Shown here: in pieces, positions 9,535 through 29,801 of the stretch
Layout of the letters: every line of letters begins with the position of its first letter
Position numbering within the stretch: position 1 is the first letter of the stretch
Assembly: GCF_947493595.1 (NCBI RefSeq)
Contig: NZ_CANLRL010000008.1
Location: 62,001 to 126,000 of the forward strand
From: an uncultured Shimia sp.
GTDB taxonomy: Bacteria; Pseudomonadota; Alphaproteobacteria; Rhodobacterales; Rhodobacteraceae
Direction of reading: 5' to 3'
Length of the DNA stretch: 64,000 nucleotides
Notes under the pieces: generated by a model
Database searches by the model: none
What the model was told of the DNA's origin: nothing
The model's input: the letters and a program-made list of their open reading frames with translations, nothing else
Program-made: the position numbers and the translations under genes

Positions 9535-11943
9535 ATGGGATATCGTGGTCGTGGCTATCTGAAAAACAAAGACATGGAGGTGGATGCCTCCGGTGCGTCC
9601 CACGGGCAATTCATCTGGACCCGAAGAGGAGATGATGAAGTGACCGGGTCTAATCACAGCGATTTTATTTTCACGGGCCGCGGGGACGATACGGTTGAAG
9701 GCGGCGGCGGCAACGACGTGATGTTTGGCGGCCGCGGAACCGATACCGCGGTCTTCTCAGGTTCTGTACTGGACTACAAAGTGCTCAGCTTTGGATGTGG
9801 GCGCTGGAACCTTGTCCAGGGGGCCGACGGCTATGATTTCCTGCATAGTTTTGAGGTCCTGCAGTTTGACGATTTCACGCTGGACTTGAGATCCAACAAC
9901 GACCCGCTGGTCATCCTGCGAGATGACGGTCTGGAGACATCGCAAGGCGAGCCCTTGAGCTTTCAGGTGGATTTTTATGATCTGGACGGCTCCACCGTGG
10001 AACTGGTTTCGGCCAGCGTCACCGGCGGCGGCACCCTTACCACGCATAACAGCGGCGCAAGCCAGGTTGGGCAAATCGGTGTCGGCGGCGGGACAACCAT
10101 CTCTTTTGATCCAGGCAGCGCTTATAACAATCTTGGCGCCGGTGAAAGCACCACCGAAACGGTCACGCTTGTCATCTCGGATGGGCAGGGCGGCACCACC
10201 ACGGTGACCTATGACATTACCATCGAAGGGCAAAACGACGCCCCTTTAGCTTTGGCGGTTTCGGCGACCGCGACAGAAGACAGCCCCATTGTTGTGACCG
10301 CGGACTACAGCGATGTTGACGCCAACGATACGCACAGCGTCTCCATCGACACGACCGGCACATTGGGCGCTGTCACAAACAATGGGGATGGCACCTTCAG
10401 CTATGACCCTACCGCAGCATTTGACAGCCTTGCCTTTGGAGAAACCGCAACGGATACATTTACGTACACAGTAGATGATGGCAATGGCGGCACATCGACG
10501 GAGACCGTGACTATTACCGTTCAGGGGCAGAATGATGCGCCCATTGCCATGGCCGTCAGCGACACAGCCGATGAAAACGGCTCCACAATCACCGTGACAG
10601 CAGATTTTTCAGACATCGATGCCTCCGATACACACACGTTTAGTGTTGATACAAGTGGCACGCTCGGCACTGTGATCAACAATGGCGATGGCACCTTTGA
10701 CTATGATCCCAACGGGGCCTTTGAGAACCTCGCCGGCGGGGAAACCGCTACAGACACCTTCACTTACACGGTGGATGACAGCAATGGCGGCACCGCCACT
10801 GAGACCGTAACTATCACAATTCAAGGCCAAAATGACGCCCCGGTGGCGCTTTCCGTGGGTGCCGTGGTCAGTGAGGACGGACCGGTTTTGACAGTCTCGG
10901 CCGATGTCTCTGATGCAGACACCTCCGACACCCATACCTTTGCCGTCGACACAACCGGTACACTTGGGTCGGTGACCAACAACGGCGACGGTACTTTTAA
11001 CTATGACGCCAATGGCGCTTTTGAGAGCCTCGGGGTCGGGGAAACCGCAACCGACACGTTCACATATACGGTGGATGACGGCAACGGCGGCACTGCGACA
11101 GAGACTGTTACAGTGACGATCACCGGCCAGAATGACGCTCCGATTGCTGAGGCGGTTGTTGGTGAAGTTGCCGAAGACCCTGCGGCTTTCAGTTCGGCAA
11201 GCGTCGGAGCCTACACGATCCCCAACTACGGGCGGTTTTACGTCTATGACTTTGACACCGGCACAGCCATTTCGATCCCGCGAGACGGCGGTGCGAATAA
11301 CACCTATGACCAGCTCGCAGCCCAATACTTGAGCGACGGCAACGGCGTGGTTATGCAAGCCAACCCCAACAATGTTGGATGGGGGTTTGCAGCTGTCGTC
11401 TATGTGGATGGGGTCGGAGACTTCGTTGATGCCTCCACCTTTGATGTCATAGGCGGCAACGGCGATGAAGACCGCTCCAATGGAGACTGGATTGCGTTTG
11501 GCGACAGCAACGAGAATATTGACAGCATCGAATTTGACATCGTTGGACTTGATCTGGGCAATGGTTACTCAGTGGATGCGCAGGTTTCGATTGGGCCATT
11601 GAACTATGAGTATTATACGACCGACGACCTGCGCGTGGATGGCGCACAGTTCAGTTCGACACTGAATGGCCCTAGCCCGTCGGTCACGGTTGCGGCTGAC
11701 GTCACCGATCCGGACAGCGATACTTTTGTGTTTAGCGTTGATGACAGCGGAACCCTTGGGTCCGTTGTCAACAATGGCAATGGTACGTTCACCTATTCGG
11801 CTGACGGCATGTTCGAACATCTGGATAATGGCGAAACGGCCACCGATAGCTTCTCCTATACGGTTGATGACGGAGAAGGCGGTTTGGATACCGAATTGGT
11901 CACCATCACCATCACAGGTTCTGACGATTTCTTGTTCGCCTAG
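9535..11943 (+). CDS. VCBS-repeat protein with N-terminal RTX-like calcium-binding segment
   Basis: An acidic 802-residue protein. The ATG at 9535 follows GGAGGGG. Residues ~28-72 contain RTX-like turns (RRGDDEV, GRGDDTVEGGGGND, GGRGTD). Three complete VCBS repeats start at GQNDAP at residues 232, 331 and 431, each 99-100 residues. A fourth starts at 531 but is interrupted by ~165 unrelated residues (~549-714) before finishing with DSGTLGS..NGNGTFTY..TATDSFSYTVDDG. No classical signal peptide is visible, so type I secretion is likely, although no T1SS genes are in the window. Probable role: cell-surface or secreted adhesin/biofilm protein. No cleaved catalytic domain is seen. Confidence 0.85.
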   Translation: MGYRGRGYLKNKDMEVDASGASHGQFIWTRRGDDEVTGSNHSDFIFTGRGDDTVEGGGGNDVMFGGRGTDTAVFSGSVLDYKVLSFGCGRWNLVQGADGYDFLHSFEVLQFDDFTLDLRSNNDPLVILRDDGLETSQGEPLSFQVDFYDLDGSTVELVSASVTGGGTLTTHNSGASQVGQIGVGGGTTISFDPGSAYNNLGAGESTTETVTLVISDGQGGTTTVTYDITIEGQNDAPLALAVSATATEDSPIVVTADYSDVDANDTHSVSIDTTGTLGAVTNNGDGTFSYDPTAAFDSLAFGETATDTFTYTVDDGNGGTSTETVTITVQGQNDAPIAMAVSDTADENGSTITVTADFSDIDASDTHTFSVDTSGTLGTVINNGDGTFDYDPNGAFENLAGGETATDTFTYTVDDSNGGTATETVTITIQGQNDAPVALSVGAVVSEDGPVLTVSADVSDADTSDTHTFAVDTTGTLGSVTNNGDGTFNYDANGAFESLGVGETATDTFTYTVDDGNGGTATETVTVTITGQNDAPIAEAVVGEVAEDPAAFSSASVGAYTIPNYGRFYVYDFDTGTAISIPRDGGANNTYDQLAAQYLSDGNGVVMQANPNNVGWGFAAVVYVDGVGDFVDASTFDVIGGNGDEDRSNGDWIAFGDSNENIDSIEFDIVGLDLGNGYSVDAQVSIGPLNYEYYTTDDLRVDGAQFSSTLNGPSPSVTVAADVTDPDSDTFVFSVDDSGTLGSVVNNGNGTFTYSADGMFEHLDNGETATDSFSYTVDDGEGGLDTELVTITITGSDDFLFA
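10228..11124 (+). repeat. Three tandem ~300-bp VCBS-encoding repeats
   Basis: Units begin at 10228, 10525 and 10825, each encoding GQNDAP at the start and TDTFTYTVDD near the end. Protein identity between units is high, while the DNA has many synonymous differences, so the duplication is not recent. The fourth unit begins at 11125 and is split by an insertion encoding about 165 residues. Confidence 0.85.
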
Positions 11944-13329: not shown

Positions 13330-15513
<2,184 letters not shown>

Positions 15514-17650: not shown

Positions 17651-18928
17651 TCAGCGGGCCAATTCATACGGGATGTACAGCGCCAGCGCAGGCCAGAACC
17701 ACAACAGCACCGCCACCGCCAGCATGATCGCCGCAAACGGCAGCGCGCCTTTCGCAACCTCCTGCAACCGCGCATTGGCCACCGCCTGAATGACAAACAG
17801 GTTCATCCCCACCGGCGGCGTGATCAACGCGGTCTCAATCAGCACCACAAAGAAGATGCCAAACCAGATCGGATCAATCCCGATGTTGAGCACCGCTGGC
17901 AAAAGCACTGGCACCATAATGAGCAGCATCGACAGGCTCTCCAGAAAGAACCCCATGAACAGCAGCACCAGGCCCACTGCGAGAATAAACAAGCTTGGGT
18001 TGGAGATGTTCTCCGTCAAAAACGCGCTGATCGACTGCGGGATCAGGTAGAGCGTGATCGCATAAGAAAACACCTTCGCCCCCGCCACAATGATCAACAC
18101 CATCACCGACGTGCGCAGCGAGCCTTCGACTGCCTCCCGCAGCTTGGCCCAATCCATGCGCCCCATGGCAAAGGTCATGATCAGCGCAATCACAAAGCCC
18201 AACCCCGCGCTTTCAGATGGCGTCGCAATACCGGTGTAAATCGAACCTACGATCGCCACTGCCAGCGCCACCGTTGGCAGCGCCATCAACGAGCTTCGCG
18301 CGCGTGTGCCCCAATCGGCTTTGGGCATCGGTTGATAGGCACCCGAGAAGCGCGAAAATAACATCCCATAAACAATGAAGGCCCCGGCCAAAAATAACCC
18401 CGGCCCAATGCCCGCCAGGAACAGCGTCGGGATCGAGCTTTCCGTTACCACACCATAAATGATCAGCGGGATCGACGGCGGGATCAAAATCCCCAAAGTG
18501 CCGCCCGCCGCCAACATGCCGTAAACAAACGGTTTGTCATAGCCACGCTTAGACATCTCCGGGATCGCCACGGTGCCAATGGTTGCTGCGGTCGCCACCG
18601 AAGAGCCGGAAATGGCGGAGAACAACGTGCAGGACAGGATCGTCGCCACGCCCAGCCCGCCGGGCCAATGCCCGACCCAACTTTGCACCGCCGCATAAAG
18701 ATCACGCCCCACCCCGCCTTTGAGCAAGACATTGGACATCAGCAAAAACATCGGCACGGCGAGGAGCTCAAAACTGTCCATCGAGCCATGCAACCGCTGC
18801 GGCACCGCCACCAATGGCAGGCCTTTCAGACCCAGCAGGATCACCCCGAGACCGCCCAGCGCAAAGGCCACCGGAGTGCGCAACAACAACAGCGCCATCA
18901 GTGCCACAAGAATGAGAACCGCTTCCAT
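17651..18928 (-). CDS. dctM: TRAP transporter large membrane subunit (DctM)
   Basis: 425 residues, very hydrophobic, with about 12 membrane segments. The N-terminus MEAVLILVALMALLLLRTPV and conserved LVAVPMFLLMSN, GGTLGILIPPSIPLI and ITPPVGMNLFV blocks are typical of DctM, the Na+-driven elevator subunit. Its start overlaps the dctQ stop by one base (TGATG). Part of dctP-dctQ-dctM-lyase. Confidence 0.95.
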   Translation of the reverse strand: MEAVLILVALMALLLLRTPVAFALGGLGVILLGLKGLPLVAVPQRLHGSMDSFELLAVPMFLLMSNVLLKGGVGRDLYAAVQSWVGHWPGGLGVATILSCTLFSAISGSSVATAATIGTVAIPEMSKRGYDKPFVYGMLAAGGTLGILIPPSIPLIIYGVVTESSIPTLFLAGIGPGLFLAGAFIVYGMLFSRFSGAYQPMPKADWGTRARSSLMALPTVALAVAIVGSIYTGIATPSESAGLGFVIALIMTFAMGRMDWAKLREAVEGSLRTSVMVLIIVAGAKVFSYAITLYLIPQSISAFLTENISNPSLFILAVGLVLLFMGFFLESLSMLLIMVPVLLPAVLNIGIDPIWFGIFFVVLIETALITPPVGMNLFVIQAVANARLQEVAKGALPFAAIMLAVAVLLWFWPALALYIPYELAR

Positions 18929-19437
18929 CAGTGCGCGCCCCCCATCACGTCATCGCCGGGCAAAGGCTCTGCCCACACGCGATACAGCTGCACTCCGCCC
19001 TGCAGCATCAACAAAGCGCTGCCGACCCAGACCGGGGCATGGGTGATCATCTTTGGCGGTGCCAGATAGGTGTCCGTGGTATGCCCCGCCATGGTGGCTT
19101 TCAGCCAAATCTGAAACCCGAAATAACAAGCCGTGCCGGCAAAAATGAACAACACGACAATCGCCAAAGTCTCCGCCAACCGGCGCCAGAGCGTGTTGGG
19201 GTTGCTCAACAGCACATCAATCGTGACCATCTCACGGTGCTTCAGCACATAGGCCGCGCCCAGGTACACCACCCAGACCTGCAACACCCGGCTGATCTCA
19301 TCCACCCAAATGGTGGGCGCGTTAAAAACGTAACGCATAAGCACTTCAAACGTGATGAAAAAGCCGATGGCAAACAGGGTCCAGGCACAAATCTTGCCTG
19401 TAAACTCAGTGATGCCATCAATGATCCGGATGATCAT
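18928..19437 (-). CDS. dctQ: TRAP transporter small membrane subunit (DctQ)
   Basis: 169 residues with four predicted helices. The family motif region FITFEVLMRYVFNAPTIWVDE is near residues 26-46. AAGGAG seven bases before the ATG at 19437 selects this start over the longer frame to 19488. The protein forms the membrane complex with DctM. Confidence 0.93.
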   Translation of the reverse strand: MIIRIIDGITEFTGKICAWTLFAIGFFITFEVLMRYVFNAPTIWVDEISRVLQVWVVYLGAAYVLKHREMVTIDVLLSNPNTLWRRLAETLAIVVLFIFAGTACYFGFQIWLKATMAGHTTDTYLAPPKMITHAPVWVGSALLMLQGGVQLYRVWAEPLPGDDVMGGAH

Positions 19438-19471
19438 TGGCCACTCCTTGCTGTGAATTTTCGCGGGAAAG

Positions 19472-19510
19472 AAAAAGGGGGACGCCATCCCTTAGGACAG
19501 CGCCCCCCCA
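19472..19510 (-). terminator. Intercistronic hairpin (attenuator) between dctP and dctQ
   Basis: On the reverse strand a GGGGGCGC arm pairs with GCGTCCCCC and is followed by TTTTTC. Partial termination here would keep the periplasmic binding protein in excess over the membrane subunits, a common arrangement. Confidence 0.6.
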
Positions 19511-19516
19511 AAAGGC

Positions 19517-20512
19517 TTAGTTGGTCATTGCGCCTTTCACAGCCGCAACCGCCGCCGCGCCGGTCTCGCCGGTTTCTTCAACAAAACGGTCCACAACGCT
19601 GGCCGTCGCCGCAACCCAGGCCGCGCGCTGATCATCAGACAGTTCGGTCACGGTCATGTTGGCTTTCATCTCATCCACGGTGGCCGCTTCTTCTGCGTAG
19701 ATCTGATCACGCAGTTTTTGCTCCACTTCCGCCGCAGCCGCGTCGATGATGGCTTTGTGCTCAACAGACAAACCTTCGTAGACGTCATTGTTGATCACCG
19801 CGACAAACTCGATCGCGCTGTCAAAGGTCAGGGTCATCTGATCCATCACCTCAAACAGCTTGCGGGATTTCACCGCAGACGCGCCGGTCATGCCCACATC
19901 CACGGCACCCTGCTGATACGCGAGGAATTGTTTGGAACCGGACATCAGGGTTGGCGCACCGCCAAGTTCCTGCACGGTCCAGCCATGGACCTTGCCGTAG
20001 GTACGGACTTTTTTATCCGCAATATCAGCCGGTTCCACAATTGCGTCGCCGTTGGTCAGATACACGTTGCGACCAAATGCCTGCCACCACAGAATGCGGT
20101 TGTTGGTCTCTTTCAGGATCGCCGCGTCCAATGTCGCACGCATGTCAGAGCCTGGTGCAACAGCGGCGCGGATGTGGGCTTCGTCAGCAAAGATAAACGG
20201 GATCGACACCACGTCCACCGCAGGAACTGACCCGGCAAAACGACCAATAAAGGCAGAGCCCGCCTCAACTGCACCGCTGCCCACCGCACCTGGTACTTCT
20301 TTGTCTTTGAAAAGCTGCGCAGACGGGAACAATTGAATTTCCAGCGCACCATCGGATTTTTCTTCAACGATGCTGGCAAAATCCTGCCAGTTCTTGCCCA
20401 AGGAATGTGTTTCCGGCAGCTGCAAAGTCACCCGGATGGTCTCTGCAAAGCTGGCAACTGGTGCAACGCTGACAAGCGCGGCTGTCGCGGCGGCTGCAAT
20501 CCAATGTTTCAT
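19517..20512 (-). CDS. dctP: TRAP transporter periplasmic solute-binding protein (DctP)
   Basis: 331 residues with a signal peptide (MKHWIAAAATAALVSVAPVASFAET, cut after SFA). DctP-family features include RVTLQLPETHSLGKNWQDFA, GAVEAGSAFIGRF, and KVRTYGKVHGWTVQELGGAP, where an Arg commonly clamps the ligand carboxylate. The ligand is probably an organic acid. It is transcribed divergently from an Lrp-type gene, whose product may regulate it through the 203-bp spacer. Confidence 0.93.
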   Translation of the reverse strand: MKHWIAAAATAALVSVAPVASFAETIRVTLQLPETHSLGKNWQDFASIVEEKSDGALEIQLFPSAQLFKDKEVPGAVGSGAVEAGSAFIGRFAGSVPAVDVVSIPFIFADEAHIRAAVAPGSDMRATLDAAILKETNNRILWWQAFGRNVYLTNGDAIVEPADIADKKVRTYGKVHGWTVQELGGAPTLMSGSKQFLAYQQGAVDVGMTGASAVKSRKLFEVMDQMTLTFDSAIEFVAVINNDVYEGLSVEHKAIIDAAAAEVEQKLRDQIYAEEAATVDEMKANMTVTELSDDQRAAWVAATASVVDRFVEETGETGAAAVAAVKGAMTN

Positions 20513-20715
20513 GACGTCCTCCCAAAATCGTACTTATGAACGCTCAACCCTAGGGCGGCTTATGGAAACCGGGTCACAATTTTGAACGCCTGTTTCCGCT
20601 AACGCGCAACAGCGTTTCTTTTTGCGCGCAAATTGTAGGACCAAACGGTCAAATTTTGGACTGCAAGGAAATTTGCTTTCGTTGTATACAGTTACAACCG
20701 AGGAAGGAAACCGCT

Positions 20716-21168
20716 TTGGACGACGCCGACAAACGCATCTTGCGCGCTATTCAAGAACAACCAGAGCTCACAATGCGAGAGCTTGGCGAAGTCACCGGCT
20801 TAAGCCACACGCCCTGTTGGCGCCGCCTGAAACGGTTGCGCGAAGAGGGCTATATCACTGATAAACGGTATGTTTTGGACGCCCAGAAGCTTGGCTTCGA
20901 CATTGTTGCCTTCTGTTTGGTGAAGCTGCAGAAGCACACACAGGAGTCGCTGGAGGAATTTGAAGCCGCCATCGAATTTCTGCCGGAGGTGGTGGAGTGC
21001 TACTCCGCCACCGGTGATCAGGACTACATCCTCAAGGTGCTCGCGCTCAGCGTGCGGGACTACGAGGAAACCATCAAACAGCGCCTGCTAAAACTGCCGC
21101 ACATTGGATCCATCCGCACCAGCCTCGCGCTCAACGAGATCAAGAACACACCAGACGTGCCGGTCTGA
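20716..21168 (+). CDS. Lrp/AsnC-family transcriptional regulator
   Basis: 150 residues from the TTG at 20716 (LDDADKRILRAIQEQPELTM), preceded by AGGAAGGA. The winged helix-turn-helix is at ~5-60 (MRELGEVTGLSHTPCWRRLK) and a C-terminal RAM/effector domain at ~68-145 (ATGDQDYILKVLALSVRDYE). Such regulators sense amino acids or related metabolites. It faces the TRAP operon, and the M24 aminopeptidase gene ends just downstream on the other strand. TRAP regulation is inferred. Confidence 0.9.
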   Translation: MDDADKRILRAIQEQPELTMRELGEVTGLSHTPCWRRLKRLREEGYITDKRYVLDAQKLGFDIVAFCLVKLQKHTQESLEEFEAAIEFLPEVVECYSATGDQDYILKVLALSVRDYEETIKQRLLKLPHIGSIRTSLALNEIKNTPDVPV

Positions 21169-21192: not shown

Positions 21193-23010
21193 TCAACCTG
21201 ACGCTGCGCCCAACCCTATCGCCGCATTGGCCTGACACCATGCCAATGCACGGTCACTCAAAAACGAACCAAGCTTCACCTCAACCTCCTGATGGTAGCT
21301 GTCCAACCAGGCGATTTCCGCCACTGTCAGCGCATCATAATCCAACATCTCGGTCATGATCGGCGCCCAGGTCAGATTGCGGAACCCAAAGAAGCCATTG
21401 TCCTCTTCGACAATCTCAAACAGGTTTTCGATACGGATGCCATAAAGCCCCGCCACATAGTGTCCCGGCTCAATCGACATCACCATACCAGGCATCAAAT
21501 CCACCGCACTGACCGGCTTGCCAATCCGCTGCGGATGTTCATGCACCGACAGCCGATGCCCAATCCCATGGCCCGTGCCGTGGTCATAATCCAAGCCTAA
21601 GTCCCACAGCGGACGCCGACAGATGGCATCAATATGATGCCCCTGCGTGCCGCGCGGAAACTTCAACGTGGCCAGCGCATAGAACGCTTTGAACACTGCG
21701 GTGTAGGCCTGATCGTACCCTTCGGGCCGCTGCCCAAAGGCAAAGCTGCGGGTAATGTCGGTGGTCCCTGTCTCATACTGCCCACCACTGTCCAGCAGGT
21801 ACGGAGCCTCCGGCAAGATCGCCGCGTTGCGCGTTTCCGTGGTGGCATAATGGCACATCGCGGCATTGCCGCCCGCCGCCGAGATCGTATTGAAACTCTC
21901 ACTCAGGTAACTACCACTGGCCTGGCGAAACGCGTTCACCTGCGCCTCCGCCTCGCTTTCCCGCAGAGGATCGCCATTGGCCGCCCGCACAGGCACCGCT
22001 TCTGCCAACCAGGCCGAAAACTCGGTCACCGCCACGCCATCCTGAATGTGGCAGGCACGCATGCCTTCCAGCTCCACCGCATTCTTCAACGCCTTGAGAT
22101 GCGTCAGGTAGCTGGTCCGTCGCTCAATCTTAGCACCAATCTTCTCCAGCGCCAGACACACCGCAACAGGCGAGAACTCAGGATCCACCAAGACCCGCTG
22201 TCCGGTTTTCACCGAGGCGCGGATAGAAGGCAAAAACCCATGTGGCGGCATGACCGAAATACTCTCCGGCAGGCTGGCCACCAGATCATCCGGCAGTTTC
22301 TCCGGCTCCACAAACCAAGTGACTGCGCCCGTGTCTGCCACCAACATAAAGGACTGCGGAATCGGCAAAAACGGCACATCGCCGCCGCGCACATTCAGGC
22401 ACCAGGCAATGTTGTCCGGCTGCGTTTCCACATGAAACTGCGCCTGCTCCTGCGCCATAAACGTCGTCAGCTCCGCTACCTTCTCACTTGCCGTTGTCCC
22501 GGCAAACTGCACCGGCATCGCGCTCACCTTCTCCATGGGTGGCGGTGGCTGCGTGTCCCAAATGAAATCCACCGGATTGTCATTTTGTGCCGCCAGCTGC
22601 ACGCCTGTCTCCGCAAGGGCCCCGGCAAAGCGATCGTACCAACTCGGCGGCAAATGCATCGGATCAAACCCAACGCACCACCAATCTCCGGCCTGCTCCG
22701 ACAGCCACGCCTCCGGCGGCTCCTCAAACAAGTGGCGGAAGGAAAACACCCCGCCCAAACACTCTTCGCGCACCTGCACGCTATAGCGCCCGTCCACAAA
22801 CATCGCGACCTCATCCATGGTCACAATCGCCATGCCAGCCGATCCCGAAAACCCGGTCACATACTGCAACCGCTCATCATGCGGCGCGACATACTCGCCT
22901 TGATGGGCGTCATAGCGCGGCAGGATGAACGCATCCAACCCACGCACACGCATCTCCGCGCGCAACGCAGACACCTGCGGCGGCACAGTCTCGATCCCAC
23001 AATCAGGCAT
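21193..23010 (-). CDS. pepP: Xaa-Pro aminopeptidase (M24B, aminopeptidase P type)
   Basis: 605 residues, the long three-domain form with two creatinase-N-like domains followed by a pita-bread catalytic domain. Metal-site motifs are LDSGGQYETGTTDITRSF (two Asp), HGTGHGIGHRLSVHE, SIEPGHYVAG and RIENLFEI. The start at 23010 overlaps the ATPase stop by 8 bp, with GGAGGAG upstream. It is the last gene of the peptide-uptake operon and would remove N-terminal residues from imported Xaa-Pro peptides. Cytoplasmic. Confidence 0.93.
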   Translation of the reverse strand: MPDCGIETVPPQVSALRAEMRVRGLDAFILPRYDAHQGEYVAPHDERLQYVTGFSGSAGMAIVTMDEVAMFVDGRYSVQVREECLGGVFSFRHLFEEPPEAWLSEQAGDWWCVGFDPMHLPPSWYDRFAGALAETGVQLAAQNDNPVDFIWDTQPPPPMEKVSAMPVQFAGTTASEKVAELTTFMAQEQAQFHVETQPDNIAWCLNVRGGDVPFLPIPQSFMLVADTGAVTWFVEPEKLPDDLVASLPESISVMPPHGFLPSIRASVKTGQRVLVDPEFSPVAVCLALEKIGAKIERRTSYLTHLKALKNAVELEGMRACHIQDGVAVTEFSAWLAEAVPVRAANGDPLRESEAEAQVNAFRQASGSYLSESFNTISAAGGNAAMCHYATTETRNAAILPEAPYLLDSGGQYETGTTDITRSFAFGQRPEGYDQAYTAVFKAFYALATLKFPRGTQGHHIDAICRRPLWDLGLDYDHGTGHGIGHRLSVHEHPQRIGKPVSAVDLMPGMVMSIEPGHYVAGLYGIRIENLFEIVEEDNGFFGFRNLTWAPIMTEMLDYDALTVAEIAWLDSYHQEVEVKLGSFLSDRALAWCQANAAIGLGAASG

Positions 23011-24001
23011 GGTGGTTGATCTCCTCCGCATGGTGACAGGCCACCTCTCCCCGTCCCTCCAAGGCCCGCAATTCCGGGATCACTGTCCGGCACTGGGCTG
23101 TCACATGACGACAGCGCACATGGAACGGACAGCCGGGCGGCACATTCAGGGGCGACGGCAACTCGCCCTCCAACTGGATCGCCGCGCCTTTGTCATCGGG
23201 ATCCAACGACGGCGCCGCGCTCAAAAGCGCCTGCGAATAGGGATGCGACGGCGCCGAAAATAACGTCTCACTGTCGCCAATCTCCACAATCCGCCCCAGA
23301 TAAATCACCGCCACACGGTTGGACACATGCCGCACCAATCGCAGATCATGCGCCACAAACAGGATGGTCAGCTGCAGCCGCTCCTGCAGCTCAAGCAACA
23401 GGTTCACCACCTGCGCCTGCACCGACACATCCAAGGCCGAAACCAGCTCATCCGCGATCAGCACCTCCGGCTCCACCGCCAAGGCCCGCGCAATGGCAAT
23501 CCGCTGACGCTGTCCGCCGGAAAACTCATGGGGCAACTTGTCGACCGCATCTTGCGGCAAACGCACCAGCTCCAACAACTCCGCAACCCGTCCGGCAATC
23601 TCCGCCTCCGGCCGCATCTGATGCACCCGCAGTGCTTCGGCCAGAATGTCGCCGGTTGTCATACGTGGGTTCAACGACGAGTACGGGTCCTGAAACATCA
23701 TCTGAACACGCCGGTTGTAGCTGCGGTCCTTGCGCGCCGCCGCGCCAAAGATGTTCTCCGCGTCAAAGTGGATCTCACCGCTGGTCGGCTCATACAGCCG
23801 TACGATGCAGCGTGCCAAAGTCGACTTGCCACAGCCGGACTCGCCGACCACACCAAGGGTCTCGCCCTGCTGCAACTCAAGGCTCACACCATTGAGCGCA
23901 TTCACCGCTTTACCCGGCTTGCGCTGCACCACATCCAGAAGGCTGCGCGACACCGGAAACGACAAATGCAGGTCGTCAATTTTCATCACAGTCTGGGTCA
24001 T
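23003..24001 (-). CDS. Peptide ABC transporter ATP-binding protein (DppF type)
   Basis: 332 residues with Walker A GESGCGKSTLARC, ABC signature FSGGQRQRIAIARALA, Walker B LIADELVSALD, and the C-terminal oligopeptide/dipeptide extension with a Cys-rich PPGCPFHVRCRHVTAQC segment that often binds an FeS cluster. It overlaps the preceding ATPase by ATGA and pairs with it as a heterodimer. Confidence 0.95.
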   Translation of the reverse strand: MTQTVMKIDDLHLSFPVSRSLLDVVQRKPGKAVNALNGVSLELQQGETLGVVGESGCGKSTLARCIVRLYEPTSGEIHFDAENIFGAAARKDRSYNRRVQMMFQDPYSSLNPRMTTGDILAEALRVHQMRPEAEIAGRVAELLELVRLPQDAVDKLPHEFSGGQRQRIAIARALAVEPEVLIADELVSALDVSVQAQVVNLLLELQERLQLTILFVAHDLRLVRHVSNRVAVIYLGRIVEIGDSETLFSAPSHPYSQALLSAAPSLDPDDKGAAIQLEGELPSPLNVPPGCPFHVRCRHVTAQCRTVIPELRALEGRGEVACHHAEEINHHA

Positions 24002-24987
24002 GCGGCATCTTCCTGTGTCGCGGGCAGTGGGTTGAAACAGGCGGTCTGCCGCCCAGGCGCAATGTCCTGCAAACTAGGTCGCGCGGTCTGACAGGCCTTT
24101 CCAGCCGCCTGACAGCGCGGCGCAAAGGCACAGCCTTTAGGCAGTGAAAACAGGCTCGGCGGCGTGCCTGGCACCGAATACAGCTGTGTACGAGGCGGCA
24201 CGTCCTGCGGCACCGAGCGCATCAGGCCTTCAGTATACGGATGGCGCGGGGTTTGCAGCACCTGCCGCACGTCACCCTGTTCAACCACCCGTCCGGCATA
24301 CATCACCGACACCGTGTCACAGGTCTGCGCCACAACGCCAAGGTCATGCGTCACCAGCACAACCCCCATCGACATCTCATCCGCCAGCTTCAGGATCAAA
24401 TCCAAAATCTGCGCCTGAATGGTCACGTCCAGCGCGGTGGTTGGCTCATCCGCCAGCAACAGCTTCGGGCTCGCAGCCAAAGCAATCGCAATCATCACCC
24501 GTTGCCGCATCCCGCCAGAAAACTGGTGCGGATATTCGCCAAGCCGCGAGGCCGCCGCCGGAATGCCCACGTGATCGAGCATCTCAATTGCGCGGTCCCG
24601 CCGCGCCCGCCGCCCCAAATCGGTATGCGCCTTCAGGGTCTCGGTCAATTGCGTGCCAACGGTCAGCAGCGGATTGAGCGAGGTCATCGGCTCTTGAAAA
24701 ATCATTGCAATCTCGCGTCCACGGATCTTGCGCAGCTGTCGTTCTGACATCGTAGTCAGCTCTTGTCCCTGCCAGCGCACGGACCCGCTCACCTCGCCAT
24801 AATGCCGCGCCAATCCCAGGATCGAGCGCAAGGTCACGCTCTTGCCGGAACCACTTTCACCGACAAGCCCCTGCACCTGCCCTTTACCAAGCGCAAAGCT
24901 CACATCGCGAACCGCAGGGAGGGCAGTGCCGCCCCGGCTAAAGGTGGTGCAGAGGTTCTCTACTTCCAAAATCGGGTGATCAGCCAT
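23998..24987 (-). CDS. Peptide ABC transporter ATP-binding protein (DppD type)
   Basis: 329 residues; start ATG at 24987 with GAGGGGA upstream. Walker [14 protein letters not shown], signature [16 protein letters not shown], Walker [12 protein letters not shown], and a C-terminal Cys-rich [18 protein letters not shown]. It overlaps its DppF-type partner by 4 bp. Confidence 0.95.
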
Positions 24988-24998
24988 TGTCTTTCCCC

Positions 24999-25865
24999 TC
25001 ACCCGCGTGGCCGCAACAGATCTGCCAGACCGTCGCCAATCAACGAAAAGCCCAGCCCGGTGATCACAATCGCAATCCCCGGCATCAGGCTCAGCCACCA
25101 GGCCGTGGTGATAAAGTTACGCCCCTCAGCAATCAGCACGCCCCACTCGGCCTGCGGCGGCTGCGCCCCCAATCCAAGATAGCCGAGCGACGAACCGAGC
25201 AGGATCGCCAGCGCCATATCGGTCATCCAGTAAACAATCACCGGCGTGATCGCATTGGGCAGCAGGTGGCGGAAAATGATACGCCGGTCGGAATAGCCCA
25301 TGACAATCCCGGCACTGGCATAATCATTGCCCATCTGCGCAATCACCTCGGCCCGCATCAGCCGCGCATAGTAGACCCAGCCCACCAGCGTGATCGCGAT
25401 ATACATATTGATCAGCCCCGGCCCCAACACGGCCACCACCGCGATGACCAACACCAAAAACGGGAAGGTGATGATTGCGTCGACCACGCGGCCAAAAATC
25501 ATGTCAGCCACGCCGCGGTAGTATCCCACCAAGGCTCCAACAGTGACGCCGATGGTCAAGGCAAATACCGTCGCCAAAATCGCCATTTGCATGTTCACCG
25601 TATAGGCGTGGATCACCCGCGACAGCGCGTCCCGTCCCAGCATATCGGTGCCAAACGGATGGGCCCAACTTGGCGGTTGCCGCACTGCCAGATAGTCGAT
25701 GAAGTTCGGATCATAAGGCGCAAAGAAGCTTGGAAAGAGCGCCAACAGGGTGGAAAACCCGATGATCACAGCCCCGATCAGAAACCCCGGCTTGCGCAGC
25801 GCCAGTTGCACCCGCGACAGCGGCGCATCGGAGGATTTTGCAGAAGTCACAACAGCATCGCTCAT
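24999..25865 (-). CDS. Peptide ABC transporter permease (DppC type)
   Basis: 288 residues, six predicted helices, N-terminal LRKPGFLIGAVIIGFSTLLA and the HPFGTDMLGRDALSRVIHA motif of DppC/OppC permeases. The coupling-helix EAA-like region lies around VMGYSDRRIIFRHLLPNAI. ATGA overlap with the DppB-type gene. Confidence 0.95.
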   Translation of the reverse strand: MSDAVVTSAKSSDAPLSRVQLALRKPGFLIGAVIIGFSTLLALFPSFFAPYDPNFIDYLAVRQPPSWAHPFGTDMLGRDALSRVIHAYTVNMQMAILATVFALTIGVTVGALVGYYRGVADMIFGRVVDAIITFPFLVLVIAVVAVLGPGLINMYIAITLVGWVYYARLMRAEVIAQMGNDYASAGIVMGYSDRRIIFRHLLPNAITPVIVYWMTDMALAILLGSSLGYLGLGAQPPQAEWGVLIAEGRNFITTAWWLSLMPGIAIVITGLGFSLIGDGLADLLRPRG

Positions 25866-26803
25866 GTCAGACGCATCCTTGGATCAAGCAGGCTTTGGAA
25901 CAGATCGGTCAGCAGGAAAACAACCGACACCAGAATGGCAAAGGTCAGCGTCAGCCCCTGAATAAGCGGATAGTCCCGCGCAAAAATCGCTTCCAGCATC
26001 AGTCGCCCCAATCCGGGCACGGCAAACACGGTCTCGGTCACCAGCGTGCCGCTCATCAGGTTGCCAATCGACAGACCCAGCAGCGTGATGGTGGAAATCA
26101 ACGCGTTGCGCAGCACGTGCCGCCCCAGGATCAACCGATTAGGCAGCCCTTTGGCGCGCGCAAACTGCACATATTCCGCATCCAGCACTTCGATAATGGC
26201 GGCACGCAAATTGCGCATGATGATCGCGGAGGTGTAGAGCGCCACAGTCATTGACGGCAGGAACAGATAATAAAGCTGGCCAAAGAAGCCATCGCCACTG
26301 CCCCCTACCGGAAACCAGCGGAGCTGCGCCGCCAGAAAGGTCAGCAGGATAAGACCGATGTAAAACACCGGCATCGACAGGCCGACCTGAAAGACCGTCC
26401 GGATCACCGTGTCCGGCCATCTGCCACGGTTGAGCGCGGCAACAAAGGCCAGCGGCCCGGCGATCAGCAACGATAGGGATACCGCAAAAAGCGCAAGGAA
26501 CCCTGTGGTTGGCAGCCGCTCGATGATTACACTGGACACAGAGGTGCGCATCATGATCGACCGCCCAAGGTCGCCTTGCAAAGTGTTGGTGAAAAACAGC
26601 CAGAACTGCACCAGCAGCGGGTCATTCAGACCAAGCTTTTCCCGGATTGCCGCCAAATCGGCGTCCGAAGCTTTGTCGCCCGCAATTGCGATGGCTGGGT
26701 CGCCCGGCAACAGCCGGACCAGAAGAAAAATGATGATCATCACAAGCACAAATGTGGGGACCATCAGCGCGAGGCGCTTCAGAACGTATTGCAGTCCGGC
26801 CAT
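25862..26803 (-). CDS. Peptide ABC transporter permease (DppB type)
   Basis: 313 residues; typical start MAGLQYVLKRLALMVPTFVL with RLLPGDPA soon after. EAA loop: VLDAEYVQFARAKGLPNRLI then GRHVLRNALI. The ATG at 26803 is preferred on homology, although its Shine-Dalgarno sequence is weak. A hairpin at 26824-26853 separates it from the binding-protein gene and may dampen read-through. Confidence 0.93.
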   Translation of the reverse strand: MAGLQYVLKRLALMVPTFVLVMIIIFLLVRLLPGDPAIAIAGDKASDADLAAIREKLGLNDPLLVQFWLFFTNTLQGDLGRSIMMRTSVSSVIIERLPTTGFLALFAVSLSLLIAGPLAFVAALNRGRWPDTVIRTVFQVGLSMPVFYIGLILLTFLAAQLRWFPVGGSGDGFFGQLYYLFLPSMTVALYTSAIIMRNLRAAIIEVLDAEYVQFARAKGLPNRLILGRHVLRNALISTITLLGLSIGNLMSGTLVTETVFAVPGLGRLMLEAIFARDYPLIQGLTLTFAILVSVVFLLTDLFQSLLDPRMRLT

Positions 26804-26860: not shown

Positions 26861-28444
26861 TTACTTGCTCACAGTTGCACGGGAGAAGATGTTGGCGCCC
26901 AACGGGGTCTGAACATAGCCGTCAACCGCTGTGGACACCGCCACCGAAAAGGGAGTCTCATACATGAACAGCAACGGCGCAGCATCGGCGTAGATCTTCT
27001 GCATGTCCGCATATTGCTGAGCCCGAGCCGCTTGGTCCATTTCTGTACCGGAAGCCTCAAAGAGCGCGTTGAACTTGTCGCTCTCCCAACCGGTGCCCAC
27101 CGCATTGCGCACTGGCGAATAGCCCAACCAACCAGTGACCTGGCTTGGATCGTTCACGTCATCCACCCAGCCATAGGTGTGGATGTCAAACTCACCGGAA
27201 CGGTTTTTCGCGCCACGGGTTGCCCCGTCCACTTGCTCCACCACCAGATCAATGCCCAGCGGCGCCCACATCTGCTGAAGCGCCGCAAAGATGGTCGCGT
27301 CATCAGACGAGCCTGCCAGCGTGGTCAGCGTCACCTTGGTGCCCGCTTCAATCCCCGCCTCTTTCACCAGCGCCATGGCTTTGTCCATGTCGTAGGAATA
27401 GAGATCCAGCTTGGATGCCAGACGGGTAGACGAGGACATCAACGGCGCGGTCATCGGCTGACCAGCGCCTTGTAGCACCAGACCAATCAGCGCGTCTTTG
27501 TTGGTGGCATAATTGATCGCCTGACGCACACGCACATCGTTGAGCGGGTTGGCCGAACCATCCGCACGGGTTTCGCGGGTGTTGATCGGCGAATAGATGA
27601 TCCGCGTGGACGGGTAGAGGTTCATGTTGATCGCCGGATCGGCGTCCAGTTCGGCCACACGGCTGAACGGCACAAACTCCACCGCATCAACTTCGCCCGC
27701 CTGCAGCTTCAGGATACGGGTGGCATCATCCGGGATGATCTCAAAATGCACCTTGTCCAGATATGGCAGCGGCTTGCCATCGGCGCCCATCTCCCAGTGG
27801 TGCTCGTTGGCGCAGAAATCCATCGACGCGCCCTGCTCAAAGCCACACATATAGAACGCGCCGGAACCGACACCGGCGCTTGCGGTGGCAAAGATGGCGG
27901 CGGATTTCTCTTGATCCGTTGCGCCCTCTGCCGCCTCAAACACGTCTTTGTTCACAATCGCGGTGTTAAACGTCGCCAGCATCGACAGAATGGTTGGGTC
28001 CGGCTGGCTCAGGCTCACGGTGATGGTGTTGCCGTCCGCGGTCACGTCAGACACGCTGCCCAGCATGCCGGACCACGGCCCCAAATCGCCATTGCGTGCG
28101 CGGTCCAGTGAGAACAGAACATCGTCCGCCTCCAGCGCCGACCCATCGGCAAACTTCAGGCCCGACTGCAGCATCAGCTTGACGGTCTTGCCATCCTCTG
28201 AGACTTCAAAGCTCTCGGCCAATCCGCCCACAATCGACTTCCCGTCATCAGACGAACGCAACAGCGTGTCAAACAAGCTGCCCACCATCCAGATGTCCGG
28301 ATTGCGGTCCGCGTAAATCGGATCAATCAGGCGCGAGCCGTCGTAGCGGGCAAAGTTCATTGTGCCGCCGCGCTCCTGCGCCGCCACCGGCATTACAAGT
28401 GCGGTCGTTGCCGCCAAAGCCGCCGCCATAAGGGTGCGTGTCAT
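26861..28444 (-). CDS. Peptide ABC transporter periplasmic binding protein (SBP_bac_5)
   Basis: 527 residues with signal peptide MTRTLMAAALAATTALVMPV ending near VAAQ. Family 5 solute-binding features: GLAESFEVSEDGKTVKLMLQ, LKFADGSALEADDVLFSLDR, and RVRQAINYATNKDALIGLVL. GGGAGGA precedes the ATG. It delivers di/oligopeptides (or a related cation such as a peptide-like opine) to the permeases. An operator-like motif lies 66-92 bp upstream. Confidence 0.94.
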   Translation of the reverse strand: MTRTLMAAALAATTALVMPVAAQERGGTMNFARYDGSRLIDPIYADRNPDIWMVGSLFDTLLRSSDDGKSIVGGLAESFEVSEDGKTVKLMLQSGLKFADGSALEADDVLFSLDRARNGDLGPWSGMLGSVSDVTADGNTITVSLSQPDPTILSMLATFNTAIVNKDVFEAAEGATDQEKSAAIFATASAGVGSGAFYMCGFEQGASMDFCANEHHWEMGADGKPLPYLDKVHFEIIPDDATRILKLQAGEVDAVEFVPFSRVAELDADPAINMNLYPSTRIIYSPINTRETRADGSANPLNDVRVRQAINYATNKDALIGLVLQGAGQPMTAPLMSSSTRLASKLDLYSYDMDKAMALVKEAGIEAGTKVTLTTLAGSSDDATIFAALQQMWAPLGIDLVVEQVDGATRGAKNRSGEFDIHTYGWVDDVNDPSQVTGWLGYSPVRNAVGTGWESDKFNALFEASGTEMDQAARAQQYADMQKIYADAAPLLFMYETPFSVAVSTAVDGYVQTPLGANIFSRATVSK

Positions 28445-28509
28445 GTCTATTTTCCTCCCTGGTCGAATCTCTTCGGTGACCGGGAGAATAGGCAGTTTTT
28501 GACATTTTG

Positions 28510-28536
28510 CTAAAACTTTTTTTAGCAAAACTAAAT
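28510..28536 (-). promoter_or_regulatory. Operator-like motif upstream of the peptide-uptake operon
   Basis: Reads CTAAAA-N4-TTTTAGCA-N2-ACTAAAT on the plus strand. The first two arms form a perfect inverted repeat (extended TTGCTAAAA / TTTTAGCAA, 28507-28528) and the third is another half-site. The same 27-bp layout occurs at 29288-29314 before the regulator gene. On the reverse strand a TATTCT -10 candidate sits downstream at ~28490, so the site would overlap the -35. Confidence 0.7.
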
Positions 28537-28620
28537 TTTTGAAGTGGAGACTTTAGCCAAAATCCAGAAATTGGATACAATATACTGAAAACACTACCCT
28601 TCTTTCTGACATCCGCAAAC

Positions 28621-29220
28621 TTAATTTTCTGCCGCTGTGCTCATTGGCGTGGTGCTGACCCACAACTCCACGGATTCCACATCGCTTACGACACGCGAAA
28701 AATGCGGTTTTGCGGTGTTGTGGTGAATCACATCCCCCGGCCCCATGACAAACACTGCGCCCTCCAGATGGTACTCAACCTCTCCAGACAGCAGGTAACA
28801 AAACACCTCCCCGTCGTGGCACATCTTCTCGGATTCATGCCCAGGCGGACGGTGAATGATCTGTGAATGCATCAGCGCACCGGGGAAGCCAGGCCCCAAT
28901 CTCTCATAAAAACGCCCTGCTGTGCCAAGTGCATAGGATTGTCGGCGGTCTTTCTGGATAAACTCGGAATAGGTTTCCGGCACACTCAACAACTGCTCCA
29001 CGCTGGTCTGCAACGCCGCTGCAATTGACATCAGCGAAGACAGAGACGGAGAGCTGATCCCGCGCTCCACCTGCGAAATGAATCCGGTGGTCAGATCAGC
29101 CTCTTCAGCAACCGCATTCAGCGTCTTGCCCAACGCCTTGCGCCGCAGACGGATCGCCCGCCCCAGCTTCTCCGGCTGCCCCTTTTGTTTTTTCTTCTTT
29201 GTTGTCGGGGAAGCCGCCAT
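28621..29220 (-). CDS. XRE-family regulator with C-terminal cupin sensor domain
   Basis: 199 residues from the ATG at 29220 (GGAGAG upstream). A Lys-rich leader is followed by an HTH at ~20-75 (TLNAVAEEADLTTGFISQVE, PSLSSLMSIAAAL) and a cupin_2 fold at ~120-190 (PPGHESEKMCHDGEVFCYLL, SGEVEYHLEG, GPGDVIHHNTAKPHFS). Such proteins sense small ligands through the cupin and repress or activate adjacent uptake genes. It sits upstream of, and on the same strand as, the peptide transporter, and both promoters bear the same operator-like motif. Autoregulation is inferred. Confidence 0.92.
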   Translation of the reverse strand: MAASPTTKKKKQKGQPEKLGRAIRLRRKALGKTLNAVAEEADLTTGFISQVERGISSPSLSSLMSIAAALQTSVEQLLSVPETYSEFIQKDRRQSYALGTAGRFYERLGPGFPGALMHSQIIHRPPGHESEKMCHDGEVFCYLLSGEVEYHLEGAVFVMGPGDVIHHNTAKPHFSRVVSDVESVELWVSTTPMSTAAEN

Positions 29221-29287
29221 CACTCTCTCCAATGGTTGATCTGGGAAAACTGCGGCCACACCATATCAGCGGAAAAAGATATGTATA

Positions 29288-29314
29288 CTAAAATGAATTT
29301 TAGCATGACTAAAT
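29288..29314 (-). promoter_or_regulatory. Operator-like motif upstream of the XRE-cupin regulator
   Basis: CTAAAA-TGAA-TTTTAGCA-TG-ACTAAAT: same arms and spacing as at 28510-28536, with only the N4 and N2 spacers different. It lies 68-94 bp before the regulator ATG, next to a TATACA-like -10 on the reverse strand. Confidence 0.7.
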
Positions 29315-29414
29315 ACCGCGCCCCGCTCTGTGCGCCGGTTATCTAATAACAAGCCACTGATTTTGCCCGACGCGCGACACCGGCGGCACCCTGCTACCAT
29401 CAAAGGAGCTCTTC

Positions 29415-29801
29415 ATGCAATTTGTCTGCCCCGCCGCCCTGCTCGGCCTCTCCCTTTTGACCGCCTGCGCCACCCCACTGGAACGCTGCATCTCCACCGC
29501 CCAATCCGAGGTCGCCACCCTACGACGCGCCATCACCACCGCCGAGGGCAACATCACCCGCGGCTACGCCATCCACCGCAGCTCAGAAAGCTACACCTAT
29601 TATGACACCTGCTATGACAAAAAAGACCGCCCCTACAGCTGCCCGGAAACCCGCTACCGCACCGTGGAAACCCCAGTCGAAATTGACGTCGCGCAGCAGC
29701 GCCAGCGGTTGAAATCGCTGCGGCGGGACCTGCCCTCCGCCGAAGACCGCGCCCGTGTTCAGGCGCAGCATTGCACGGCCCTGCACCCGCCAACCGGATG
29801 A
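29415..29801 (+). CDS. Small lipoprotein of unknown function
   Basis: 128 residues. Signal peptide MQFVCPAALLGLSLLTACAT ends in a lipobox L-T-A-C (Cys18), predicting a lipid-anchored periplasmic protein. The mature part has a probable coiled-coil stretch (STAQSEVATLRRAITTAEGN), a Tyr/Cys-rich centre with CYDKK and SCPETRYRTVETP, and a second helix. AAGGAG precedes the ATG. Family not recognised. Confidence 0.75.
   Translation: MQFVCPAALLGLSLLTACATPLERCISTAQSEVATLRRAITTAEGNITRGYAIHRSSESYTYYDTCYDKKDRPYSCPETRYRTVETPVEIDVAQQRQRLKSLRRDLPSAEDRARVQAQHCTALHPPTG

Follow-up and report, generated by a model that had tools for sequence, protein, structure and literature searches.

An XRE-cupin regulator gene and the two sites of common layout that flank it point to a local repressor of peptide uptake and Xaa-Pro cleavage, which would resemble PsdR of P. 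aeruginosa and be released by a ligand; we estimate the probability of this model as a whole at about 0.82. The analysis started from the window (the whole stretch of DNA analysed, 64,000 nucleotides) and was extended to the genome it belongs to and to related loci. Close relatives of this genome bear the names Shimia or Rhodobacteraceae, and from them the genus is taken to be Shimia. The PsdR kind of system is known; what is new is the changed arrangement of half-sites, which is the source of a modest extra interest. If the model holds, the PsdR type of peptide-uptake control would be extended to marine Rhodobacteraceae with a precise predicted operator, and the regulator would gain a suggested function in 13 loci. 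No description of the regulator or the motif in Rhodobacteraceae was found among the titles and abstract openings listed from an open-access library.

Regulator, importer and aminopeptidase genes

The regulator gene and the operon downstream of it are laid out as follows.

28621..29220, minus strand: XRE-cupin regulator, 199 aa, HTH_3 and Cupin_2 (Pfam search)
26861..28444, minus strand: substrate-binding protein (SBP) of a peptide-type ABC importer (SBP_bac_5, DppA-like; PF00496, E 9e-81)
25862..26797, minus strand: DppB-like permease (profile and relatives)
24999..25865, minus strand: DppC-like permease (profile and relatives)
23998..24987, minus strand: DppD-like ATPase (profile, Pfam and relatives)
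23003..24001, minus strand: DppF-like ATPase (profile and relatives)
21193..23031, minus strand: three-domain M24 Xaa-Pro aminopeptidase, the operon's last gene (Pfam and solved relative)

The regulator carries an N-terminal XRE-type HTH_3 domain (PF01381, residues 23-76, E 1e-10, 41.9 bits against a cut-off of 23) and a C-terminal cupin (PF07883, residues 123-188, E 5e-10, 39.3 bits against a cut-off of 27.2), the same domain architecture as in the XRE-cupin repressors PuuR, PauR and ErfA. Its best NCBIfam match is the PuuR model (NF007408), but an assignment as PuuR was rejected, the match scoring 39.7 bits against a curated cut-off of 211 bits. The predicted structure has a mean pLDDT of 65 and is of little use for geometry. 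Its best fold match is 1y9q (E 3.3e-11), an HTH_3 family regulator of Vibrio cholerae known from its structure only; since pLDDT is low and the TM-scores are 0.35-0.39, this likeness in predicted fold supports the architecture alone. The PuuR model also matches five other regions of the own genome (C1:904023-904565, C3:175444-175965, C1:877338-877862, C2:81703-81897 and C12:38534-38806, the last two matching one part of the model only), so that several XRE-cupin-like regulators may coexist in this genome.

In the operon, the DppB reading frame is open to 26842, and the start at 26797 was taken since relatives align from there. The last gene product contains Peptidase_M24, Creatinase_N, Creatinase_N_2 and Peptidase_M24_C domains and has Xaa-Pro aminopeptidase 1 as its best solved relative (3ctz, E 3.6e-97), and by both measures it is predicted to be a three-domain M24 Xaa-Pro aminopeptidase. 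The SBP matches the NCBIfam DppA model with E 8e-40, but its 136.8 bits are far under the cut-off of 1005, and its relatives in the PDB include dipeptide-binding proteins (1dpp, 8z1y) but heme- and nickel-binding ones too. Peptide specificity is therefore assumed from the peptidase and from the class of transporter.

Past the operon end (17651-21168) lie a divergent Lrp/AsnC-like regulator gene and then TRAP-like DctP, DctQ and DctM genes, their functions judged from sequence; this order is kept in L026-L030. One copy of the Lrp-like neighbour, G021:C268:42738-43241, has one in-frame stop and comes from a metagenome-assembled genome. Another close copy (G019:C16:6484-6993, 94%) is found in a genome that yields no regulator match at E <=1e-30, owing either to an assembly gap or to absence of the operon. 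Elsewhere in the window, the list of reading frames contains an 802-aa one with repeated cadherin/VCBS-like stretches (9535-11943).

Conserved sites flanking the regulator gene

Exact matches of CTAAAANNNNTTTTAGCANNACTAAAT were found by pattern search at 28510-28536 (+) and 29288-29314 (+). No third match at <=3 mismatches occurred in the 64-kb window, 100 dinucleotide shuffles of the window gave zero matches, and at <=3 mismatches the own genome (4,281,320 bases) contains these two sites only. An earlier note, made from the window alone, had stated that 21 of the 27 positions are fixed, with the spacers alone differing, and that the regulator gene lies directly between the sites. Both statements were borne out: all six differences between the sites fall in the spacers (four in N4, two in N2), and the gene runs between them on the minus strand from its ATG at 29220 to its stop at 28621. 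Each site contains a 16-bp core (half-sites h2 and h3) and an additional half-site (h1).

28510..28525, minus strand: putative operator core CTAAAA-N4-TTTTAG (h2 + h3) of the SBP/Dpp operon, 0 mismatches, 65 bp upstream of the SBP ATG (28444)
29288..29303, minus strand: putative operator core of the regulator gene, 0 mismatches, 67 bp upstream of the regulator ATG
28531..28535, minus strand: h1 half-site of the SBP operator, TTTAG on the gene strand, forming TTTAG-N5-CTAAA with h2
29309..29313, minus strand: h1 half-site of the regulator operator, TTTAG on the gene strand, exact in the window, L031 and L056

The core occurs exactly at two places only in the 4.28-Mb genome. At one mismatch it was found at three further places, against 24 for the reversed control pattern, and a wider regulon in the own genome was rejected. 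At the SBP operator, an additional CTAAA-like half-site is present at 28551-28556, with the h1-containing ATTTAG lying 14 nt downstream of it; the additional half-site reads CTAAAG, CTAAAA or CTGAAA across the window and L026-L029.

Conservation was followed in 13 loci (the window, L026-L031, L032 and L052-L056; L028 is that of the type strain Shimia sagamensis DSM 29734), which are not independent because the window and L026-L029 are closely related. The regulators of the other 12 loci are 59-98% identical to that of the window in alignment, and all 13 loci have in common the order regulator-SBP-DppB-DppC-DppD-DppF-peptidase. The motif was expected to recur beside orthologous regulators, and it did so upstream of the SBP gene in every locus, with the core 61-72 bp from the ATG (0 mismatches in seven loci, 1 in five and 2 in one), and upstream of the regulator gene in 10 of the 13, where the distance is 147 bp in L052 and 38-71 bp in the other nine. 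In L053, L054 and L055, no core was found within 250 bp upstream of the regulator, where the best match has 4-5 mismatches. The proposal of an autoregulated switch for peptide import and Xaa-Pro cleavage is thus supported, except that autoregulation through such a site is not universal, as these three loci indicate. We regard the conserved sites in the intergenic regions on both sides of the regulator gene as candidate operators.

Outside the promoter regions of the 13 loci, the core was present at none of 285,912 positions with 0 or 1 mismatch and at 14 with 2 mismatches; within them, 21 of 26 promoters have it with 0 or 1 mismatch. Each site was also compared with 1,000 shuffles of the 100 bp upstream of its gene (200 bp for the L052 regulator). 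Its quality was equalled by at most one shuffle at 21 of the 23 sites (11/13 SBP, 10/10 regulator), the exceptions being the SBP sites of L029 (5/1,000) and L055 (81/1,000); the latter, with 2 mismatches, is not convincing on its own. In a scan of 147 genomes for the full 27-bp pattern at <=2 mismatches, relatives showed the SBP site only, because their regulator-side third arm is not exact. A 2-mismatch match to the 27-bp pattern in G118, a genome of the same class, was treated as chance, as were two matches of the reversed control (G109, G138).

The sites also track the regulator. Among 394 genomes of the family, the regulator has eight matches at E <=1e-40 (seven at 61-100% identity and a distant one at 45%) and the SBP has 14 at E <=1e-150 (seven at 72-100% and seven at 46-51%), and the seven genomes with a close SBP are exactly the seven with a close regulator. 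Within the genus the regulator is patchy, with an orthologue at >=90% identity in 6 of 25 genomes. For the seven distant Dpp operons (SBP 46-51%), 5-14 kb were read and contained neither a regulator nor a peptidase match, the read of L083 ending inside DppB and so not reaching its peptidase position. All seven lack the core in the 400 bp upstream of the SBP, with 3-5 mismatches at best. These results bear on whether the sites might belong to another regulator, such as the divergent Lrp-type one at 20656-21168, the position of the XRE-cupin gene being incidental. An Lrp-like gene does lie past the operon end, and binding by the XRE-cupin protein is itself a prediction, but the core accompanies 13 of 13 loci with an XRE-cupin gene and none of the seven related operons without one. 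Moreover, no Lrp match was found in the stretches read for L031, L032, L052, L054, L055 and L056 (about 2-2.6 kb past the peptidase gene), where the core is present, and the own genome has just two exact cores. Ownership by another regulator is accordingly very improbable, and the XRE-cupin protein is preferred as the factor that would bind the sites.

Half-site layout and likeness to PsdR

According to two reports, PsdR is an XRE-cupin protein of P. aeruginosa that binds TTAAG-N5-CTTAA in the mdpA and dppA3 promoters; these genes lie on both sides of psdR, and both are repressed by PsdR (PMC10965056, PMC7901475). The system in the window shares with PsdR-MdpA-DppA3 an XRE HTH joined to a cupin, two operators (here candidates) flanking the regulator gene, and a peptide SBP and a peptidase as targets (predicted ones here; the peptidase of the PsdR system is a dipeptidase); SBP_bac_5 and M24 genes are neighbours of the regulator gene, with matches in 13/13 loci. 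It shares also the half-site pair TTNAG-N5-CTNAA, present here as h1-h2. It differs in that its predicted targets form one operon (SBP-BCDF-peptidase) downstream, whereas those of PsdR lie on both sides, and in that one putative operator serves the regulator's own promoter. The PsdR operator as such was not found at the window sites, which read TTTAG-N5-CTAAA, with half-sites TTTAG/CTAAA rather than TTAAG/CTTAA, and a third, strongly conserved half-site gives rise to CTAAAA-N4-TTTTAG. A further target of PsdR is reported to be lasR, so that PsdR is not strictly local (PMC10965056), and the consensus sites of PsdR, PauR and ErfA are reported to differ (PMC7901475).

Distant homologues of the regulator (20, 31-45% identity; eight out of ten found by one search and all 12 distant loci of another) were scanned in the 350 bp upstream and 500 bp downstream of the gene. 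Exact TTNAG-N5-CTNAA was present beside the regulator in 6 of the 20, amounting to 13 copies in 17,000 positions, compared with 1 in 137,482 positions elsewhere in the same loci, a background whose AT content is not matched. In L087, L089 and L091, which belong to these six, the regulator is flanked by an M24 match and an SBP match, one on each side as in the PsdR system, and in L087 the SBP_bac_5 and M24 families likewise adjoin the PsdR-like gene. Exact CTNAA-N6-TTNAG was found in none of the 20 and, at <=1 mismatch, in five, three of them PsdR-like loci. Where the residue preceding xSQ in the recognition helix is F, 10 of 13 homologues have an N5 site within one mismatch, and where it is Y, 1 of 7; the residue in the window's clade is F. 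In the tree, the 13 regulators of the conserved loci form one group (support 100/99), and the PsdR-like proteins of L087, L089 and L091, with 36-38% identity to the regulator, fall on another branch. These sequences make it very probable that the regulator and PsdR recognise half-sites of one kind.

Two XRE-cupin/Dpp operons of the GYLSQ-helix branch, in L037 (near 14230-14260) and L039 (near 3276-3300), share a different element before the SBP gene, CTAAAA followed by GTATACAATAA, which is a candidate operator of that branch. In another genus, an aldehyde-dehydrogenase-like gene was seen by eye upstream of the regulator (L032 upstream of 8969; L009 1-1264). It suggested a link to hydroxyproline, which was left unused.

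The half-site scheme was described in 5-mers as h1-N5-h2-N6-h3-N5-h4 and applied to 23 sites. TAG or CAG lies exactly N5 to the left of the core in 16 sites, its mirror image N5 to the right in three, and either in 17, and other spacings from 0 to 15 reach at most 4 of 23. When L026-L029 were left out, 11 of the remaining 15 sites had it at N5 and at most two at other spacings. A looser measure (CTAAA or TTTAG, <=1 mismatch) gave 13/23 sites at N5 to the left, and also seven to the right at spacing 8 and, at spacing 0, five on either side. For the pairing h2-h3 (CTNAA-N6-TTNAG), 17 sites are exact and six have one mismatch; the corresponding counts are 8 and 8 for h1-h2 (TTNAG-N5-CTNAA) and 1 and 4 for h3-h4, and 20 of the 23 sites have at least one N5 pairing within one mismatch. 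In this comparison the sites were picked by the core, which favours h2-h3 over the N5 pairings. The perfect inverted repeat with a third half-site, as first described, is exact at both window sites, but its regulator-side third arm is not general among relatives: TTTAG is found there in L031 only among the six closest (L026-L031), with TGCAG or TGTAG in L026, L027, L028, L030 and L032 and a degenerate arm in L029. The third half-site h1 is, on these counts, real and position-locked but degenerate.

A series of PsdR-type half-sites spaced one turn apart describes the layout better than a palindrome with an added half does. Within the window's clade, one half-site follows another every 10-11 bp along a single helix face. 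Such an arrangement would fit a register with one dimer on h2-h3, in which h1 provides an extra contact or a second anchor, and the stronger conservation of h2-h3 favours this. It would also fit two tandem dimers on h1-h2 and h3-h4, 21 bp apart with h2-h3 as the seam, which the N5 form in relatives favours. A tentative and rather doubtful extension is that one family uses the same TTNAG half-site in two opposite dyad arrangements, and that the regulator might thereby occupy either of two registers separated by one helical turn. The pairing in PsdR-like relatives is TTNAG-N5-CTNAA, and the most constant element of the window's clade is CTAAAA-N4-TTTTAG, the N5 pairing being kept there as an overlapping, decaying one; with three half-sites at 10-11 bp on one face, ligand or occupancy might shift the registers. 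If true, the operator would be a natural snapshot of changing dimer geometry. The N4-pairing clade and its N5-pairing relatives, with the same type of recognition helix, form a comparative series that allows one to ask how half-site geometry changes while half-site recognition stays.

Promoter position and the proposed switch

The usual spacing rules for promoters were applied to the -35/-10 reading.

28485..28513, minus strand: putative SBP promoter, -35 box TTAGCA at 28508-28513, 17-nt spacer, -10 box TATTCT at 28485-28490

Of the 13 SBP promoters, nine have TAnnnT exactly 19 nt past the core and 12 have it at 18-20 nt (18 nt in L027 and L054, 20 nt in L032); the SBP promoter of L056 has TATTCA at 18 nt. 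Three-position windows between 0 and 44 nt that share no position with 18-20 contain it in no more than 2 of the 13. Given a spacer of 17 nt, the -35 box reads TTAG(C/T)A, in which the last two bases extend the right arm of the core. The conserved TAnnnT thus indicates that the right arm coincides with the -35 box, and a bound protein would cover this box. At the regulator promoter (10 sites), no -10 hexamer was found at 18-20 nt past the core; TATGGT/TATGTT is present at 22-23 nt in 7/10, too far to pair with the same -35, and TATCTT at 6 nt in 5/10, all in Shimia-type loci. The consensus sigma-70 scan called no promoter at either site, its only hit being on the opposite strand at 28554-28581. 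The idea that each site overlaps a plausible promoter is therefore upheld by comparison for the SBP site, against an empty consensus scan at both.

A perfect inverted repeat might also act as RNA or DNA structure, as a hairpin, terminator or riboswitch. Its stem would consist of five A-T pairs and a single G-C pair, the SBP core overlaps the proposed -35 box and hence would be untranscribed from that promoter, no Rfam family reaches the gathering score in 28300-29500, and the terminator scan is empty at both sites. The Rfam and terminator scans led us to reject these structures, which we consider hardly credible compared with a protein-binding site.

The position of the core fits activation as well as repression and by itself does not separate the two. 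Class II activators overlap the -35 box, activator-dependent promoters often have poor -35 matches, and TTAGCA is a poor match to TTGACA, so the regulator might activate the operon in this manner. The same core, however, stands before the regulator gene in 10/13 loci. In addition, PsdR, the nearest functional analogue, represses (PMC7901475, PMC10965056), and one report describes those P. aeruginosa XRE-cupin regulators whose regulons have been determined as inhibiting transcription (PMC7901475). Activation is for these reasons unlikely, and repression of the operon by the regulator is the likely mode, as far as comparison and analogy indicate.

In the repression model, the regulator would bind TTNAG/CTNAA half-sites before its own gene and before the SBP-DppBCDF-aminopeptidase operon, possibly with cooperative occupancy of three or four half-sites. 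Binding at the operon would cover the -35 box and block RNA polymerase, and the two sites very probably let the regulator shut off both its own gene and the operon. The ligand would be peptide-derived, the likeliest candidates being Xaa-Pro di- or tripeptides, or else a product; X-Pro dipeptides induce mdpA in the PsdR system, according to one report (PMC7901475). Once taken up by the transporter, the ligand would be sensed by the cupin domain and the regulator released, whereupon import and cleavage would rise, together with synthesis of the regulator, which would serve as a brake.

The stretch from the regulator stop to the SBP promoter includes a block, at least 32 bp long (28568-28599; GGGTAGTGTTTTCAGTATATTGTATCCAATTT on the gene strand), that is identical in the window and L026-L029, and its downstream flank varies. 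Within this block lies TTGTATCC, and the block may act as a control site in its own right.
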